In this document: positions 3,690-9,797 of the stretch, one piece after another
Numbering within the stretch: position 1 is the first letter of the stretch
Layout of the letters: every line of letters begins with the position of its first letter
IMG/VR virus record: IMGVR_UViG_3300039018_000081
Coordinates: 1 to 23,513 of that record
DNA from: a virus
Strand: one strand, 5' to 3'
Length of the DNA: 23,513 nucleotides
The notes under the pieces: model-generated
Told to the model about the DNA's origin: nothing
The model's database searches: none
Seen by the model: the letters and a program-made list of their open reading frames with translations, nothing else
Position numbers and translations under genes: made by a program

Positions 3690-3744
3690 AAAGGTCAACT
3701 CTCATGGCAACTAACAAATGAAACCCCTAACTAAAGGAATTTCA

Positions 3745-5874
3745 GTGCCAACTATAACTGAAACACCCCTGCCAGACACATTCAGCCAGTCCCAGTCTGT
3801 CGCCTGCAAGATTGGCGCTGTCGCCCCTGATGCGGTGTTCTGCACCTTTGCCCTACAAGGCAGCAAAAAAATCCCATACAAGCGATCTGGCCAAGGCGTG
3901 GCACGGGATACAGACCCAAGCGATCTCTACAACGCTGAAGACATTTGGGCTATGGACTCATGCCCACATGGCCAGTACCTTGGCCTAGTCCAGCAGCGCC
4001 CTATCATCAGCGCATCAGGCAACTTTCTGGTTTGCCTCGATGTGGACATGAAGCACGCTAGTGGCCCCACCAATGTGGCCATCCAGCGCATGGCCAAGTA
4101 TGTCAAGCAGCACAAGATGCTGACCGAGGTTTCTGTCTCAGGCCGTGGCCGTCATGTCTTCTTATGGGTCTCACCACCCAAAGAAGCTGACCAGGTGCTG
4201 CCCAAATACAAGCTAGGCGGTGGTCAGGAACTCGAAGTATTCGGCCTGCCAAACAGTGCCGGCAAGTCAGTGCTACTCAGTGGCAATGCCGTGGTCGGTG
4301 AATTCCAAGAGGCCGTAGACCTTTATGCTTTATTACAAGACTGGGGGATCATCGAGCAGCACCAGCTCCAAGAGCCAAAGCCTGTCGCCCCATCACAATC
4401 ATTTGACTTCACCCAATTAGGCTCAAGGCTTGAAGACAGCGATCTTGATCGTGCCATCAAGGCTTTGCACCATATTTCCCCAGACTGCGACTATGACCAG
4501 TGGATAGAGCTGGGCCAAGCGCTGCATACAGAATTCGGTGAAAACGGCCTCGGCCCATGGATGACATGGTCCATGGCCGGCAACAAGTTTGCAGGCACTA
4601 AAGACATAGAAGTCCACTGGAAGAGCTTTCACCAGGGCAAAGGTGTCGGGCTTGGCACTCTCTACAAACACGCCAAAGACTGTGGGTGGGAAGCCCCAAC
4701 TAAGCAGACCGAAAGAAAATCAGCCGTGGAAGACTTTGCCGCGGTGATCAATGCACCAGTCACCATAGATGCACCAGACCCGTCATGGCCAGAGCTGGCC
4801 TTAGACCTGACAAAGCTCAATCCCATCGATTACCTGATCGAAGGCTTCATGGCCCATTCTTTCTTTATCTTGGCCGGTCAGCCTGGCGTGGGTAAGACCA
4901 CAGCAGTGATCAGTCTGTGCATGGTCATGGCAGGGTTTAGTGTGGAAGGCTGCGAGATTCATTCAAAGACCAGGCGCAAGTCAATCATCGTGACTGAAGA
5001 CTCGGACCAGATAATCCGAACACTATTTGCATATTCAAAGCATTACAAGATAAATAATCTAAATGATTGGTTTGTGGTTATTGATGCCAGAAGGTCTAAT
5101 GTCAAAGATTTACTCAGGCTTGCACATAATATTGAGCGCCACACAGTTAATGGCATTAAGCCATTATTGGTTCTTGATACGGCCAATGCCACCATGGATA
5201 TTGATAATGAGAATGACAACTCGGAAGTGGGTGCATATATTGCCGCCATCAAGCAGACCATCTTTATCCAACAAAAAGCGCCAGTCTGCATCCTGACCCA
5301 CACAAACAAAACAATCAGCCGCCAAGACTCAGATGCCATGGCCCGTGGAGCTTCTGCCTTTACAGGCGATGCAACCCTCACAGGCGTGCTTTTCATGGAT
5401 GAGGATAACCAGCGGTATCTCAAGCTGACCAAGACCCGCTACGAGCCTCAGTTCAGAGAAATCAAATTCGACTCCATCACATTCCCAGAACTGGTCACTA
5501 CCAGCAATGGTGATCTGCAAGAGATTATTTGCAGGGTGGCTATTCCAGCCATGTCGTCAGAACAAGACCGGATGGCCGCCAAGCAGTCCCAGCAAGACAG
5601 CGCCAAAGAGCAGCGCATCCAAGACAAGTGCGATGAGGTCTGCAACCATGTCCAGTCCATCATCAATGACAAAGGCAGCGTCATTATGCGAAGAGGACCA
5701 GGCAGGCCGGTCGTGCCAAAAGAACTTCAAAGCGCCTACCAACTGGACTGGACTGAAATCTTCTCAACTGTTAAAGGCTCAGATGCAGGCTATATCCGCA
5801 AGCACATTGGCACGGCCATCTTCACCAGATTCGCATCAAACGAGCCATTGTCAGGCTGGGTGAGATTGGCATGA
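3745..5874 (+). CDS. Bifunctional prim-pol primase / RepA-like helicase
   Basis: About 709 aa, three domains. Residues 1-210 resemble archaeo-eukaryotic primase/polymerases (prim-pol): CLDVDMK carries the metal-binding D99/D101, SVSGRGRH carries the nucleotide-binding Ser/His (to H137), and ELEVFG (E162/E164) supplies the third acidic position. Residues 230-320 match PriCT_2 (helical linker with DYDQWIELGQALH, WKSF and GTLYKHAKDCGW). Residues 350-580 form a RecA/RepA-type ATPase with Walker A GQPGVGKTT (378-386) and Walker B PLLVLDTANATMD. I chose the GTG because AAAGGA stands 6 nt before it; the ATG at 3718 (nine codons longer) has no ribosome binding site. Predicted to prime and unwind the phage origin. 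The adjoining repeat array downstream is its likely target. Confidence 0.86.
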   Translation: MPTITETPLPDTFSQSQSVACKIGAVAPDAVFCTFALQGSKKIPYKRSGQGVARDTDPSDLYNAEDIWAMDSCPHGQYLGLVQQRPIISASGNFLVCLDVDMKHASGPTNVAIQRMAKYVKQHKMLTEVSVSGRGRHVFLWVSPPKEADQVLPKYKLGGGQELEVFGLPNSAGKSVLLSGNAVVGEFQEAVDLYALLQDWGIIEQHQLQEPKPVAPSQSFDFTQLGSRLEDSDLDRAIKALHHISPDCDYDQWIELGQALHTEFGENGLGPWMTWSMAGNKFAGTKDIEVHWKSFHQGKGVGLGTLYKHAKDCGWEAPTKQTERKSAVEDFAAVINAPVTIDAPDPSWPELALDLTKLNPIDYLIEGFMAHSFFILAGQPGVGKTTAVISLCMVMAGFSVEGCEIHSKTRRKSIIVTEDSDQIIRTLFAYSKHYKINNLNDWFVVIDARRSNVKDLLRLAHNIERHTVNGIKPLLVLDTANATMDIDNENDNSEVGAYIAAIKQTIFIQQKAPVCILTHTNKTISRQDSDAMARGASAFTGDATLTGVLFMDEDNQRYLKLTKTRYEPQFREIKFDSITFPELVTTSNGDLQEIICRVAIPAMSSEQDRMAAKQSQQDSAKEQRIQDKCDEVCNHVQSIINDKGSVIMRRGPGRPVVPKELQSAYQLDWTEIFSTVKGSDAGYIRKHIGTAIFTRFASNEPLSGWVRLA

Positions 5875-5878
5875 CCAG

Positions 5879-6063
5879 TCTAATGCGGAAAGACGGAACT
5901 AATGCGGATCTAATGCGGAATTCCGTATTAGACAATGGCAGGGATTGTTGGATAAGTGGGGTCTTTAGACCCACTTATCCACAGACCAGTCTCGGCTTGG
6001 AAGGTACTTCAGTTTCTAATGCGGAAAGGCGGAAAATTCCTTAAGGGCTTTCCGCATTAGAAA
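5879..6063. repeat. CTAATGCGGA iteron-like array with inverted repeats
   Basis: The word CTAATGCGGA recurs on both strands. Forward copies are at 5880-5889, 5899-5908, 5910-5919 and 6016-6025. Inverted copies are at 5921-5932 (one mismatch) and 6048-6063. The third and fourth copies abut to make a near-perfect 24-bp palindrome centred on an EcoRI-type GAATTC (5909-5932). The fifth and sixth make a perfect 16-bp inverted repeat (6013-6028 with 6048-6063) around a 19-nt loop. A further forward copy lies at 6161-6170 inside the next gene. Such direct/inverted repeats beside a RepA-like helicase gene are typical of replication-initiator binding sites, but they could also be operators. Confidence 0.75.
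5950..5980. other. Long hairpin whose 3' arm contains a DnaA box
   Basis: GGATAAGTGG-G-GTCT (5950-5964, one bulged G) pairs with AGACCCACTTATCC (5967-5980), 14 bp with a 2-nt loop. The 3' arm plus the following ACA makes TTATCCACA (5975-5983), a consensus DnaA box. No T-tract follows, so a terminator is unlikely; an origin hairpin or mRNA structure at the end of the primase-helicase transcript fits better. Confidence 0.55.
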
Positions 6064-6094
6064 CGAGCATTTGATGGTCCAACACAAAGGGAAG

Positions 6095-6114
6095 TTATGC
6101 ACAGCTTATCCACA
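6095..6114 (+). promoter_or_regulatory. Two DnaA boxes over the start of the next gene
   Basis: TTATGCACA (6095-6103) and TTATCCACA (6106-6114) both fit TTWTNCACA and lie 11 bp apart on the same strand and face of the helix. They cover the start codon (6097) of the 106-aa gene. Host DnaA bound here could take part in origin opening and also block transcription. With the box at 5975-5983 there are three consensus boxes within 140 bp. Confidence 0.65.
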
Positions 6115-6417
6115 AATTTAGATTTCATCGAAGATGAGCGCGTTTTCTGCCATCAATGCGCTAATGCGGAAATGGTCGAGCAGCGCCAGTCGATGCCAGC
6201 AGAGCAAATGGAAAGGCACAGAAAGGTCAACGCCAAACCATTGCAGTGGATGTTCGACCAGGCAAAGATCAAAGGTGGATGGGCAACAGTCACATGGTCC
6301 GAACATCAGTGCAGCCAAACGGGTCTCGCTGCATTCCCAACCGATGTCAAGCACCGATGCCATATGTTTCAGACCAAAGCCTCGGCAGTAGAATCCGAAG
6401 CATGGTGGTTGACTTAA
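6097..6417 (+). CDS. Hypothetical Cys-containing (possible zinc-binding) protein, 106 aa
   Basis: No family recognised. The four cysteines are VFCHQC (C18, C21), HQCSQ (C72) and HRCHMF (C88), an arrangement compatible with a treble-clef or zinc-ribbon site. The middle is charged and helical (residues 25-55). AAAGGGAAG ends 2 nt before the ATG and supports the start, although the spacing is tight. The gene overlaps the 5' end of the VRR-NUC gene by 16 bp, so the two are probably co-translated. Unusually, its first codons carry two DnaA boxes and an iteron copy, so it is embedded in the origin candidate. A short regulatory protein acting at that site is possible but unproven. Confidence 0.6.
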   Translation: MHSLSTNLDFIEDERVFCHQCANAEMVEQRQSMPAEQMERHRKVNAKPLQWMFDQAKIKGGWATVTWSEHQCSQTGLAAFPTDVKHRCHMFQTKASAVESEAWWLT

Positions 6418-6770
6418 AACGCAAGAGAAAAAGCATTGAACACACTGATCAAGTCAAAGTGGTCCAACACTTTCGAGCGTTCTATCCGGACATCATCATT
6501 GCAGCAATACCCAATGGAGGCGATAGAAGCCCTCAAGAGCGCGTTAGGTTGCACAGTGAAGGGGTATTGTCAGGGATGCCGGATTTATGCGTCTTGGAGC
6601 CTAAAAACGGGTTTCATGCGTTATTTGTGGAAATGAAGACCAAGGCCGGAGTGGTTTCAACCAAGCAAAGCGCTGTGGGTTTGCAGTTAAATACAAAAGG
6701 GTATCGGTCAGTGGTCGCCAGATCAGCTGCCGAAGCAATCAAATCAATTGAGGATTATCTGAATGGCTGA
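6402..6770 (+). CDS. VRR-NUC domain nuclease
   Basis: 122-aa stand-alone VRR-NUC protein (PD-(D/E)XK superfamily, the nuclease fold of FAN1), the usual phage size. Motifs: an N-terminal helix with VKVVQHFRAFYPD, AIPNGGDRSP (residues 35-44), RVRLHSEGVLSGMPDL (catalytic D61), and FVEMKTKAG (E77, K79), then TKQ (Q89). The frame is open upstream to 6246, but a start there would overlap the preceding gene by 172 bp. The ATG giving MVVDLKRKRK fits the family. Stand-alone phage VRR-NUC enzymes can cleave structured DNA such as four-way junctions. A role in resolving replication or packaging intermediates fits its place just before the terminase genes. It overlaps the small terminase gene by 8 bp. 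Confidence 0.88.
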   Translation: MVVDLKRKRKSIEHTDQVKVVQHFRAFYPDIIIAAIPNGGDRSPQERVRLHSEGVLSGMPDLCVLEPKNGFHALFVEMKTKAGVVSTKQSAVGLQLNTKGYRSVVARSAAEAIKSIEDYLNG

Positions 6771-7281
6771 ACCAAAACGTAAAGCACAAACACTTGCAGA
6801 AGTGGCCGACAACATTGCGACCAGGCAGATGGGACTCAAAGAGCAAGCAGCTCTTACACGCAAAGAAGCCACCGATGTCAACAAGAAGATTCACGCTGCT
6901 GGTGGCGAAATTACCATCCTAGACAGACTCTCCGAAGGTGAGACCATTCTCAGCTTGGCAAGGTCGTTGAAGGTGAGTCACACGGCTTTCTATGACTGGA
7001 TCGATAGAGGGGGCGAGGCGCGGGCTTCTGCCCTTGCGCGTGCGCGGGCGCGTGGTGGCCGAAGTTTAGCAGAGGAAACGATAGAAATTGCAGACGCTGC
7101 CACACCTCAAGACGCGCAGGTGGCCAAGCTGAGAGTGGACACAAGGCGCTGGCTGGCCTCTAAGCAGGCTCCAGATGAGTATGGTGACAAGCAGCAACCC
7201 TTGGTCAATATCGACCTTGGAAGCATGGCCCTCGATGCCCTGCGCAAGCGCACTGTCGTGTCACTAGACGATTCTGCATAA
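6763..7281 (+). CDS. terS: Terminase small subunit, Sf6-like
   Basis: 172-aa DNA-recognition subunit of the packaging motor. A Lys-rich N-terminus is followed by an HTH around residues 55-90 (ITILDRLSEGETILSLARSL then VSHTAFYDWI). The middle has an Arg/Ala-rich oligomerisation helix (ASALARARARGGRSLAEET) and the motif AKLRVDTRRWLASKQAPDEYG that typifies Sf6-type small terminases. It binds the packaging site and regulates the large-subunit ATPase. The start overlaps the VRR-NUC gene end. A 326-bp non-coding gap and five tiny genes separate it from the large subunit. A Gly/Arg block of very GC-rich codons (7011-7065) stands out from its surroundings. Confidence 0.85.
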   Translation: MAEPKRKAQTLAEVADNIATRQMGLKEQAALTRKEATDVNKKIHAAGGEITILDRLSEGETILSLARSLKVSHTAFYDWIDRGGEARASALARARARGGRSLAEETIEIADAATPQDAQVAKLRVDTRRWLASKQAPDEYGDKQQPLVNIDLGSMALDALRKRTVVSLDDSA

Positions 7282-7607
7282 ATGAATACTGAAGCATTCA
7301 GTCACTTTATACAACGACCATTATGTTAAGTGGATAAGTCGTTATCCACAGAATTAAGTGCATCAAAGTATTACAAGCCTAGTTATGCACAGGAATCTGT
7401 GGATAAAGTTGGCCAAAATCTGGGGACAAGTCGGTGGCGGCCAGCTGGCGGTTTGGTGGCCGTGACCCCCCCTTGGCCGGTTTGGCGGGGGCGACTGTGG
7501 CGGCACTAAACACCTACAAAAAAAATTTTTAAAAAAATATTGAACTAGTTGACATAAAACGCAAAAACCGATCACAATCTCTATTCCACAAACAACGGAG
7601 CAAACGA
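7282..7607. other. Non-coding 326-bp region: second DnaA-box cluster, GC block, AT block
   Basis: No convincing gene. Layout: 7330-7349 is a perfect inverted repeat GTGGATAA-GTCG-TTATCCAC whose right arm is a DnaA box (7342-7350). TTATGCACA follows at 7383-7391 and an inverted box TGTGGATAA at 7398-7406. At 7428-7505 there is a strongly GC-rich block with a GCCAGCTGGC palindrome (7440-7449), a C7 run (7466-7472) and GGTTTGG at 7450-7456 and 7479-7485. At 7506-7560 there is an A/T-rich block. A candidate promoter then precedes the small-gene chain. An origin, a packaging (cos/pac) site and the late promoter could all be here; its position between the terminase genes suits a packaging site. Confidence 0.6.
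7549..7578 (+). promoter_or_regulatory. Candidate strong promoter with UP-like A/T tract
   Basis: A perfect -35 TTGACA (7549-7554) is followed after 18 nt by CACAAT (7573-7578, 4/6). An A/T-only stretch of A and T runs (about 7518-7540) lies immediately upstream, like an UP element. Transcription would begin near 7585, leaving a 20-nt leader with GGAG before the first small gene at 7608. It is well placed to drive the small-gene chain and the large terminase and virion genes. Confidence 0.5.
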
Positions 7608-7772
7608 ATGAAATCTAAGCAAGCGACAGTGATACTTAAGGGTCAGGAGTGGATCGTCATCGACACTACTGAGACTAAAGACGGGAAAGTCTTCTGCACT
7701 TTAATGAGTCCAGACGGGCATACTGCTTTACACGCATGGGTGGACATTAACCAGATCGTGGGGATTATATGA
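7608..7772 (+). CDS. Hypothetical small protein, 54 aa
   Basis: Unrecognised. ACGGAG stands 6 nt before the ATG. The sequence alternates strand-like segments (ATVILKGQEWIVIDTTE, GKVFCTLMSP, ALHAWVDINQIVGII) and looks like a small beta-rich domain of the kind seen in modulators and decorators; no cysteine pair or membrane span. The TGA overlaps the next gene's start (ATGA). It is the first of five tiny coupled genes between the terminase subunits, directly downstream of the candidate promoter. Confidence 0.7.
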   Translation: MKSKQATVILKGQEWIVIDTTETKDGKVFCTLMSPDGHTALHAWVDINQIVGII

Positions 7773-7933
7773 ACATTACGTTATTAACTAAGGTTAGATA
7801 TTTGTTTAATGTCGATTATGTGCCTATTAGCACTAACAGACATAATCAGAGACAGTATATTAAGGCATTAAGAATGCTTGGTAATAAGTGGTTAACGCAC
7901 CCAAATAATCAGATTCAGAAAATAGCCCAGTGA
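7769..7933 (+). CDS. Hypothetical small basic protein, 54 aa
   Basis: Unrecognised. It starts in an ATGA overlap with the previous gene and ends in a GTGA overlap with the next, so its frame is fixed by both neighbours. The protein is basic and Asn/Gln-rich (NRHNQRQYIKALRMLGNKWL), which fits nucleic-acid or acidic-partner binding, though nothing specific can be claimed. Its codons are clearly AT-richer than the adjacent terminase genes. Confidence 0.62.
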   Translation: MNITLLTKVRYLFNVDYVPISTNRHNQRQYIKALRMLGNKWLTHPNNQIQKIAQ

Positions 7934-8010
7934 TTATTATTTATTTAATATTGGCATTTAATGTGCTGGTGCTTATTTGGGGAATATGGAAATGGTATCG
8001 TGAAGAGTAA
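7930..8010 (+). CDS. Tiny membrane peptide, 26 aa
   Basis: A GTG start overlaps the TGA of the previous gene (GTGA). The product is nearly all one hydrophobic helix: IIIYLILAFNVLVLIWGIW followed by a charged KWYREE tail, giving N-out/C-in topology by the positive-inside rule only weakly (one Lys, one Arg). The last 11 bp overlap the next gene. No known family. A peptide this short needs proteomic or ribosome-profiling support, but the tight coupling on both sides favours a real gene. Confidence 0.5.
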   Translation: MIIIYLILAFNVLVLIWGIWKWYREE

Positions 8011-8194
8011 TTTTGTAAATAATCCGGTGAGGTTGAATGGGAATGCGCATGGCCATAAATTACAGCTTTGTAATAAGTGCTCTTTAAAGAAGCCGCCAGA
8101 GGGTGGGGTTGAGATGAGTGCGACCAGGTGGTTGTGTGCGTCATGCTGGACCAATCGGGTGACGAGTCAGAACTTGAAAGAGATGGCCAAATGA
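8000..8194 (+). CDS. Small zinc-ribbon-like protein, 64 aa
   Basis: The start is taken at a GTG (MKSNFVNNPVRLNG) overlapping the membrane peptide gene. The open frame extends a little further upstream, but the GTG gives the overlap style of this cluster. Two CxxC knuckles, LCNKC (C24, C27) and LCASCW (C46, C49), are 18 residues apart, as in zinc ribbons. Basic residues surround both. Possible roles are DNA or RNA polymerase binding or structural metal binding; no family was recognised. TGA overlaps the next ATG (ATGA). Confidence 0.62.
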   Translation: MKSNFVNNPVRLNGNAHGHKLQLCNKCSLKKPPEGGVEMSATRWLCASCWTNRVTSQNLKEMAK

Positions 8195-8394
8195 CTGATT
8201 TATTGACGGCATTGCATTTGTCGGTGGTGATGTTGGATTTAAGAATCCGGATGATGGAGGCGATTGAAGAGGGCCGGTTTGACCTGGCGATGACGTATCA
8301 CTTGCTGATACTGGTGCGGCAAGACGAGCTAGATGCGCATAAGTGGGCGATGAGTCCCAAGGCTTGGGCCATCTATGAGACGATCCACCCATGA
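8191..8394 (+). CDS. Hypothetical helical protein, 67 aa
   Basis: The start is fixed by an ATGA overlap with the zinc-ribbon gene. The stop in turn overlaps the large terminase ATG (ATGA). Entirely helical by appearance (LLTALHLSVVMLDLRIRMM, EAIEEGRFDLAMTYHLLILV) with an acidic/aromatic end KAWAIYETIHP. No membrane span is certain. Its position immediately before the large terminase suggests a packaging accessory, but this is positional inference only. Longer in-frame starts upstream would overlap the zinc-ribbon gene fully and are rejected. Confidence 0.66.
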   Translation: MTDLLTALHLSVVMLDLRIRMMEAIEEGRFDLAMTYHLLILVRQDELDAHKWAMSPKAWAIYETIHP

Positions 8395-9797
8395 AAGAAA
8401 ATGTTTTCAGTCAGTGGGTAGAGAGGTATCAGCCTGATCCGGTGCTGTTTGTGCGGGAGGTTTTGGGGGTTGACCCTGACCCGTGGCAGGTGAAGTTTCT
8501 TGTGGCAATAGCACGGGGTGACAGGAAGATAAGTGTCAGGTCTGGCCACGGGGTGGGGAAAAGTACGGCAAGCAGCTGGGCCATGCTCTGGTACTTTATG
8601 ACCAGATCGCCAGTCAAGGTGGTGGTCACTGCACCGACAAGCTCTCAGCTGTATGACGCGATGTTTGCCGAGCTGAAGAGGTGGATCAATGCGATGCCTT
8701 TGCCACTTCAAGGTCTATTGACTGTCAAGCAAGAGAGGATTGAGTTCAATGCTGCACCGACTGAGATGTTTATCAGTGCCAGGACAAGTCGGGCAGAGCA
8801 GCCGGAAGCCTTGCAGGGGATTCACAGTGAGAATGTGATGCTGGTGGCCGATGAGGCTTCTGGTGTGCCGGAGCAAGTGTTCGAGGCCGCGGCTGGCTCG
8901 ATGTCTGGCCACAATGCGGTGACGCTGTTACTGGGCAATCCGGTGAGATCGAGTGGGTTTTTCTATGACACGCACACGCGATTAGCCGATGAGTGGACCA
9001 CGTTTCAGGTGGCTTGCACTGACTCGCCACGGGTGAGTGATGAGTACGTCAAAGAGATGGCCATGCGCTATGGCGAGGAAAGTAACGTCTACCGGATCAG
9101 GGTGATCGGTGAGTTTCCCAAGGGGGATGACGACACTGTCATTGCCATGGACTTGCTGGAGAGCGCGGTGAATCGGGATGTGGCGCCAAGCGAGTATGCG
9201 CCCATGCTCTGGGGCTTGGATGTGGCGCGGTTTGGATCGGACAGATCAGCGCTGTGCAAAAGGCAGGGCAATGCGGTGACTGAGAATATCCGGACATGGA
9301 AGAATTTGGACCTGATGCAATTGACTGGTGCGGTGGTGGCCGAGTACCAGGCGCTGCCACCGAGCCAGCAGCCCAGAGAGATATTAGTGGACAGCATTGG
9401 ATTAGGTGCTGGGGTGGTGGATCGGCTACGGGAGCTGGGCCTGCCGGCCAGAGGGATCAATGTGAGTGAATCACCCGCGATGGGTGGGACTTACAGGAAT
9501 CTGAAAGCAGAGCTTTGGTACAAGGCAAGGGCGTGGCTTGAGGCGCGGGACTGCAAGATGCCAAAGGATGAGGTCTTAATTGCTGAACTGGCCACAGTGC
9601 GGTACTCATTCACTTCAAACGGCAAGATCGCCATTGAGGGGAAAGATGAGATAAAGCGAAGGGGGCTGCCAAGTCCTGACAAGGCCGATGCCTTTGTCCT
9701 GACATTTGCGTCTGATGCAATGGCCGGAATGTACGGGTCAACTGGCTCAAGCAAGTGGAGCCAACCCCTGCGCAGAAACCTTGTCAGGGTTGCATAA
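8391..9797 (+). CDS. terL: Terminase large subunit (packaging ATPase and nuclease)
   Basis: 468 aa, typical length. ATPase domain: adenine-binding PDPWQ (residues 29-33), Walker A SGHGVGKST (51-59), Walker B VMLVADEA (149-156, catalytic E155), coupling motif LLLGNP (179-184). RNase H-like nuclease domain: LDVARFGSDRS (D277), ILVDSIGLGAG (D334), and SPDKADAF (D433). All key acidic residues are present, so it should cut concatemeric DNA and pump it into proheads with the small subunit and portal. The start is in an ATGA overlap. The plus strand of this gene is markedly G-rich, whereas genes left of 6 kb are C-rich. Confidence 0.95.
   Translation: MKENVFSQWVERYQPDPVLFVREVLGVDPDPWQVKFLVAIARGDRKISVRSGHGVGKSTASSWAMLWYFMTRSPVKVVVTAPTSSQLYDAMFAELKRWINAMPLPLQGLLTVKQERIEFNAAPTEMFISARTSRAEQPEALQGIHSENVMLVADEASGVPEQVFEAAAGSMSGHNAVTLLLGNPVRSSGFFYDTHTRLADEWTTFQVACTDSPRVSDEYVKEMAMRYGEESNVYRIRVIGEFPKGDDDTVIAMDLLESAVNRDVAPSEYAPMLWGLDVARFGSDRSALCKRQGNAVTENIRTWKNLDLMQLTGAVVAEYQALPPSQQPREILVDSIGLGAGVVDRLRELGLPARGINVSESPAMGGTYRNLKAELWYKARAWLEARDCKMPKDEVLIAELATVRYSFTSNGKIAIEGKDEIKRRGLPSPDKADAFVLTFASDAMAGMYGSTGSSKWSQPLRRNLVRVA

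Follow-up and report, generated by a model that had tools for sequence, protein, structure and literature searches.

Several described replication systems resemble the locus reported here. The oriV of RSF1010 carries iterons and short priming hairpins (ssiA/ssiB), and depends on a RecA-type helicase, a dedicated primase and the host polymerase (PMC4234260). The P4 alpha protein unites primase and helicase parts and binds the origin repeats through a C-terminal winged helix, and for pRN1 and the Bordetella phages BIP-1/BPP-1, origins with a stem-loop have been proposed 3' of genes encoding AEP-helicase-winged-helix proteins (both PMC4234260). As presented in the excerpts of Kazlauskas et al. 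2018 (PMC5862659), PrimQH proteins combine an AEP, PriCT-1/2 and a P-loop helicase (of the RepA type among others) with a winged helix suggested to recognize the origin. In the A-site of the ABC-primosome, a hairpin in single-stranded DNA bears a DnaA box (PMC6127211).

Here we analysed a 23,513-base stretch of DNA from an uncultured freshwater phage (IMG/VR virus record IMGVR_UViG_3300039018_000081), hereafter the window, in which the stretch of repeats, hairpins and DnaA boxes downstream of a primase-helicase gene is very probably the phage replication origin. The locus brings together elements so far known apart: an AEP primase in one protein with a RecA-like helicase, iterons, hairpins of the single strand, and boxes for host DnaA. 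As in RSF1010, iterons and hairpins, a RecA-type helicase, a primase and the host polymerase all figure in our model, but RSF1010 uses three proteins (RepA/RepB'/RepC) where the phage has one polypeptide, and the phage DnaA boxes lie inside the conserved core. A single primase-helicase with a predicted C-terminal reader of origin repeats recalls P4 alpha, whose primase is of the bacterial Toprim type, whereas the phage protein is composed of AEP, PriCT_2 and AAA_25 RecA-like parts and is accompanied by DnaA boxes. The likeness to pRN1 and BIP-1/BPP-1 lies in the AEP, the helicase, the C-terminal winged helix (predicted in the phage) and the origin 3' of the gene; these systems, however, use an SF3 helicase and lack iterons, having one large stem-loop, as opposed to the RecA-like helicase, iterons and DnaA boxes of the phage. 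Compared by domain order alone, PrimQH agrees with the phage protein, but the excerpted text of PMC5862659 describes no iteron origin for it. The phage hairpin at 5949-5983 holds a DnaA box as the A-site does, although the phage has its own primase-helicase. In these sources, the AEP-PriCT-2-P-loop helicase-winged-helix architecture is already described and origins 3' of such genes are proposed; new is the combination of such an architecture with iterons and DnaA boxes, together with natural specificity classes. No account of this origin was found in the literature searched, which lay mostly outside subscription journals. Origins of uncultured phages are mostly guesswork, and a large collection of natural variants here locates, culture-free, an origin and the portion of the initiator that would read it.

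Anatomy of the repeat locus

The locus contains six exact copies of CTAATGCGGA, five on the + strand (5880, 5899, 5910, 6016 and 6161) and one on the - strand (6051-6060), as well as an inverted copy with one mismatch (5922-5931). With at most one mismatch allowed, the window holds eight matches, seven of them in this locus, against 0.96 expected from dinucleotide shuffles, which places the six iterons of the original prediction far above chance. The near-perfect 24-bp palindrome that it had described at 5909-5932 was recovered as well, and consists of the direct iteron at 5910 and the inverted iteron at 5922-5931, with one mismatched pair. A perfect inverted repeat does exist, but measures 17 bp (6012-6028/6048-6064) rather than the 16 bp proposed; similarly, the hairpin holding a DnaA box is present, with a stem of 12 perfect pairs instead of 14. 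The two further DnaA boxes expected at 6095-6114 were both found. Over the whole window, six DnaA boxes (TTATNCACA) were counted against 0.99 expected from dinucleotide shuffles. As in iteron origins, several direct repeats at fixed spacing thus lie by the initiator gene, with DnaA boxes alongside.

Compared with shuffles, single-strand folding gave z -5.6 for the hairpin and z -7.8 for the inverted repeat. No strongly A/T-rich stretch was found within 5875-6170, whose least stable 50-mer (6086-6135) is only weakly unstable, in the top 4% of the window. In the window, orf106 (6097-6417) appears to start within DnaA box 2; the likely start shifts in other relatives, and the DnaA boxes keep their places.

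Table 1 Features of the putative origin region and its surroundings (window coordinates).
Feature	Position	Strand	Sequence or basis
Primase-helicase / initiator gene	3718..5874	+	Pfam, invariant motifs, AF2 model
Predicted iteron-reading domain (residues 615-718)	5560..5871	+	Class-perfect residues, Mantel correlation
Iteron cluster 1	5880..5931		Direct copies 5880, 5899, 5910; inverted 5922-5931
Hairpin with DnaA box 1	5949..5983	+	12-bp stem 5949-5960/5970-5981; A-site / ssi-like
DnaA box 1	5975-5983		TTATCCACA; in and just past hairpin 3' arm
Iteron cluster 2	6012..6064		17-bp inverted repeat: direct iteron 6016, inverted 6051-6060
DnaA box 2	6095-6103	+	TTATGCACA
DnaA box 3	6106-6114	+	TTATCCACA
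Last iteron	6161..6170	+	Inside orf106
Second DnaA-box cluster	7330..7406	7342 +, 7383 +, 7398 -	Between terS and terL
A/T tract right of second cluster	7507..7560		Candidate unwinding element or promoter region

The primase-helicase and its relatives

Pfam identified PriCT_2 at residues 247-319 (E 1.6e-17) and an AAA_25 RecA-like helicase domain at residues 363-532 (E 3.8e-17). No Pfam model matched for an AEP domain. AEP-type motifs are present (DVD 108-110, H146), with D108, D110 and the S139-H146 region invariant or nearly so in 33 sequences, and we take this DxD and conserved histidine to be an AEP primase signature; the PHROGs DNA primase and primase-polymerase profiles also match the protein. 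Its solved-structure matches included no RepA chain, and the only whole-protein profile matches among them, pentatricopeptide-repeat chains over 36 residues, were judged to be due to chance. The full-length AF2 model, with a mean pLDDT of 55.7, was left out of the fold search.

A search of the viral collection returned 80 close relatives of this primase-helicase, a second lineage around the circular record MW202879 (52% protein identity to the window), and an intermediate lineage (L102, L168 and L169). Genome-scale comparisons covered 10 genomes, nine ~36-kb relatives of the window and MW202879. Gene order around the circle is common to the relatives while contig start points vary, which fits circular or permuted genomes. 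No phage matched the window by Megablast, and the genome collection yielded a single related contig, L102, from a MAG with the label Acidimicrobium; this was set aside as an indication of host, L102 being probably a misbinned phage contig. One relative, L062, encodes at 7625-9757 a primase-helicase whose N-terminal half is strongly divergent and whose helicase and C-terminus are of class A; judged by its sequence, this protein is a recombinant.

A fixed layout with class-specific iterons

The layout directly 3' of the primase-helicase gene is fixed in the ~80 relatives, down to 52% protein identity. Iteron cluster 1 keeps its position across 64 distinct relatives, and in nearly all loci with enough sequence DnaA box 1 lies near +100 from the gene, followed by boxes 2-3 near +220 to +240. 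The iterons hold register across relatives while their sequence differs: class A, that of the window, has CTAATGCGGA, class B GTAATGCGGT, class C GTAAACCGGT/GTAAAGCGGT (GTAAA[C/G]CGGT), and the MW202879 clade a CGGAGATACC-like repeat. Within a genome, iterons at different sites share 0.89 identity, as opposed to 0.68 for the same site between classes, indicating that the repeats change in concert. The last iteron co-varies with class in most relatives, the inverted repeat of cluster 2 is kept in all classes with a class-specific sequence, and L035-L037 carry an extra 19-bp repeat unit. Outside the origin, no copies of a genome's own iteron were found in the nine ~36-kb relatives. Within-class diversity at 5875-5994 (0.035-0.053) is among the lowest in the 2.8 kb examined. 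These data bear out the expectation that the repeats would flank the primase-helicase gene in related phages, with the addition that position is conserved and sequence changes in concert.

The C-terminal domain follows the iteron class

Since Mantel permutation counts ignore relatedness, the argument is carried by effect sizes and by the class-B chimeras: rho with the iterons was 0.843 for residues 615-718, 0.68 for the helicase and 0.063 for the AEP part. In partial tests, the C-terminal domain retained 0.684 given the helicase, and the helicase 0.12 given the C-terminal domain. Values for other proteins were 0.048 (HTH66), 0.045 (SSB), 0.016 (TerS), 0.01 (SNF2 helicase), 0.10 (VRR-NUC protein) and 0.28 (orf106, which overlaps the array). 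The HTH protein (515-715) was rejected as repeat binder, its variation not following the iterons (rho 0.05 versus 0.84). Four residues of the C-terminal domain, 623, 637, 640 and 680, are class-perfect. Among the class B loci, five have an A-like and four a C-like helicase, and all nine have B-type residues at the class-specific positions between 623 and 709; by their sequences these loci are natural recombinants, in which a single C-terminus/iteron type is combined with two types of helicase. The C-terminus of the primase-helicase and the repeats vary jointly, which makes this end of the protein the most likely reader. Linkage alone would yield some correlation, the domain and the origin being adjacent, but the correlation does not extend past 6175, and in class B the helicase is uncoupled; along the DNA, association with iteron class is restricted to ~4735-6175, a stretch reaching from the helicase domain through the last iteron, and is near zero outside.

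Residues 596-718 were modelled by AF2 with a mean pLDDT of 87.5, in the order long helix, strand, strand, helix, helix, strand, a predicted fold compatible with a winged helix. Foldseek against the PDB gave nothing significant (best E 3.5), and its single significant match among viral models was a 715-residue phage AAA protein (52% identity). Low-Z structural matches included winged-helix domains (Cul4B complex, Z 4.7; DasR, Z 3.9; ScpA, Z 2.7), mixed with glutaredoxins; Pfam returned nothing convincing for the domain. A similar co-specificity links the O protein and ori of lambdoid phages. The iteron classes and natural chimeras offer direct tests of protein-DNA specificity, and the classes could help call origins in related metagenomic phages.

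Base pairing at the hairpins

The hairpin at 5949-5983 carries a DnaA box in its stem, the arrangement of an A-site. Among relatives, changes on both sides of the stem occur at three pairs (5 of 216 cells), values reached by 0-1 of 500 shuffles, and MW202879 has a different stem that folds nonetheless (z -6.1). These compensatory changes, together with the different but folding stem, argue for a role of pairing in the putative hairpin, in keeping with a site of priming or loading on single-stranded DNA. The inverted repeat at 6012-6064 may reflect either a paired structure or a dyad binding site.

Position of the GC-skew minimum

The minimum of the detrended cumulative GC skew lies 16-223 nt before the primase-helicase stop in all 10 genomes, at 5841 in the window; where the original prediction called for a skew minimum close by, the minimum thus falls in the stop region throughout. 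At third positions the three genes on the left have negative skew, and most of those on the right are positive or close to zero; the right arm is uneven, with MCP and orf10006 negative at third positions. As genes on both sides lie on the same strand and differ in third-position skew, the switch does not simply follow gene orientation; skew also reflects transcription. Together with the conserved layout beside the primase-helicase, the skew minimum supports the reading of the locus as an origin.

Neither a PolA-type polymerase nor a tyrosine integrase was found in the 10 genomes, in line with a presumed use of the host polymerase and a lytic life. A search with DNA_pol_B_2 gave no match and its control was likewise silent.

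A second DnaA-box cluster and alternative readings

A second DnaA-box cluster, which did not figure in the original prediction, recurs +1.4 to +1.5 kb away in most relatives of the window clade that have enough sequence, and is absent from the MW202879 clade; outside both clusters, DnaA boxes are nearly absent from these genomes. The neighbouring A/T tract is conserved, is preceded by a GC-rich block and ranks in the bottom three of the window's 50-mers for stability. A hairpin at this cluster was discarded as a conserved element, its left arm not being conserved. This second cluster could supply the other half of the origin, serve as a promoter region or titrate DnaA. Its conservation and its place beside an A/T tract suggest that the origin may be bipartite, and bipartite bacterial chromosome origins provide a model for looping and melting there. 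Tentatively, DnaA could bridge the two parts, the iteron cluster looping to 7330-7406 and the A/T tract melting, with the exchangeable specificity types within one lake population of phages behaving like incompatibility groups; we consider this elaboration possible, though rather doubtful. That 7330-7560 is itself the true origin and 5875-6175 an accessory enhancer would fit the conserved DnaA boxes and the adjoining stretch of low stability, yet this is very unlikely: the MW202879 clade lacks the second cluster and retains the first, the skew minimum falls at the first, and no iterons occur at the second.

The repeats might instead form an operator or control region, at which the primase-helicase or the HTH protein regulates the neighbouring genes and DnaA acts as a transcription factor. 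Iteron initiators often double as autorepressors, and orf106 begins within the region of the repeats and DnaA boxes, but the array lies downstream of the gene with which it co-varies, and 5600-6500 yielded no promoter- or terminator-like site, including no sigma-70-like promoter. As the HTH protein does not follow the iterons, and the skew switch and the hairpins are left unexplained, we regard this regulatory reading as very unlikely. The terS gene is only 0.6 kb away and pac sites often lie near terS, so that a pac or partition-like site read by TerS (6763-7281) or a segregation protein was also considered; iteron type is, however, not reflected in TerS variation (rho 0.016), class association drops to near zero past 6175, and neither the DnaA boxes nor the linkage to the primase C-terminal domain is accounted for, which makes this reading extremely improbable.

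Proposed scheme of initiation

The best joint explanation, in which we place high confidence, is that 5875-6175 would be the origin of a lytic-type ~36-kb phage, working through the C-terminal domain, DnaA, the hairpins and the host polymerase. The primase-helicase would bind the 10-bp iterons through its ~100-residue C-terminal domain, as their co-inheritance suggests, and host DnaA would occupy the three boxes beside them, whose offsets are near-constant. Initiator and DnaA together could then melt the duplex and bring the RecA-like helicase onto it. Once exposed, the hairpins at 5949-5981 and 6012-6064 may act as priming or loading sites: either the phage AEP primase would start there, as at ssiA/ssiB of RSF1010, or a DnaA-dependent primosome would assemble, as at an A-site. 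Because no PolA-type polymerase was found, the primers would presumably be extended by the host DNA polymerase. Replication would probably be of the theta type, at least initially, and the C-terminal domain and iterons may constitute one exchangeable specificity cassette.

Other observations on the phage group

MW202879.1 is recorded as Myoviridae, a label that may be wrong; its portal and capsid proteins match a group including several podovirus-type phages. It also carries, near terS, a serine resolvase gene (966-1634), which was not found in the nine window relatives. At 1387-2613 the window encodes a SNF2-type helicase, weakly similar to defence-system helicases and conserved across the phage group.
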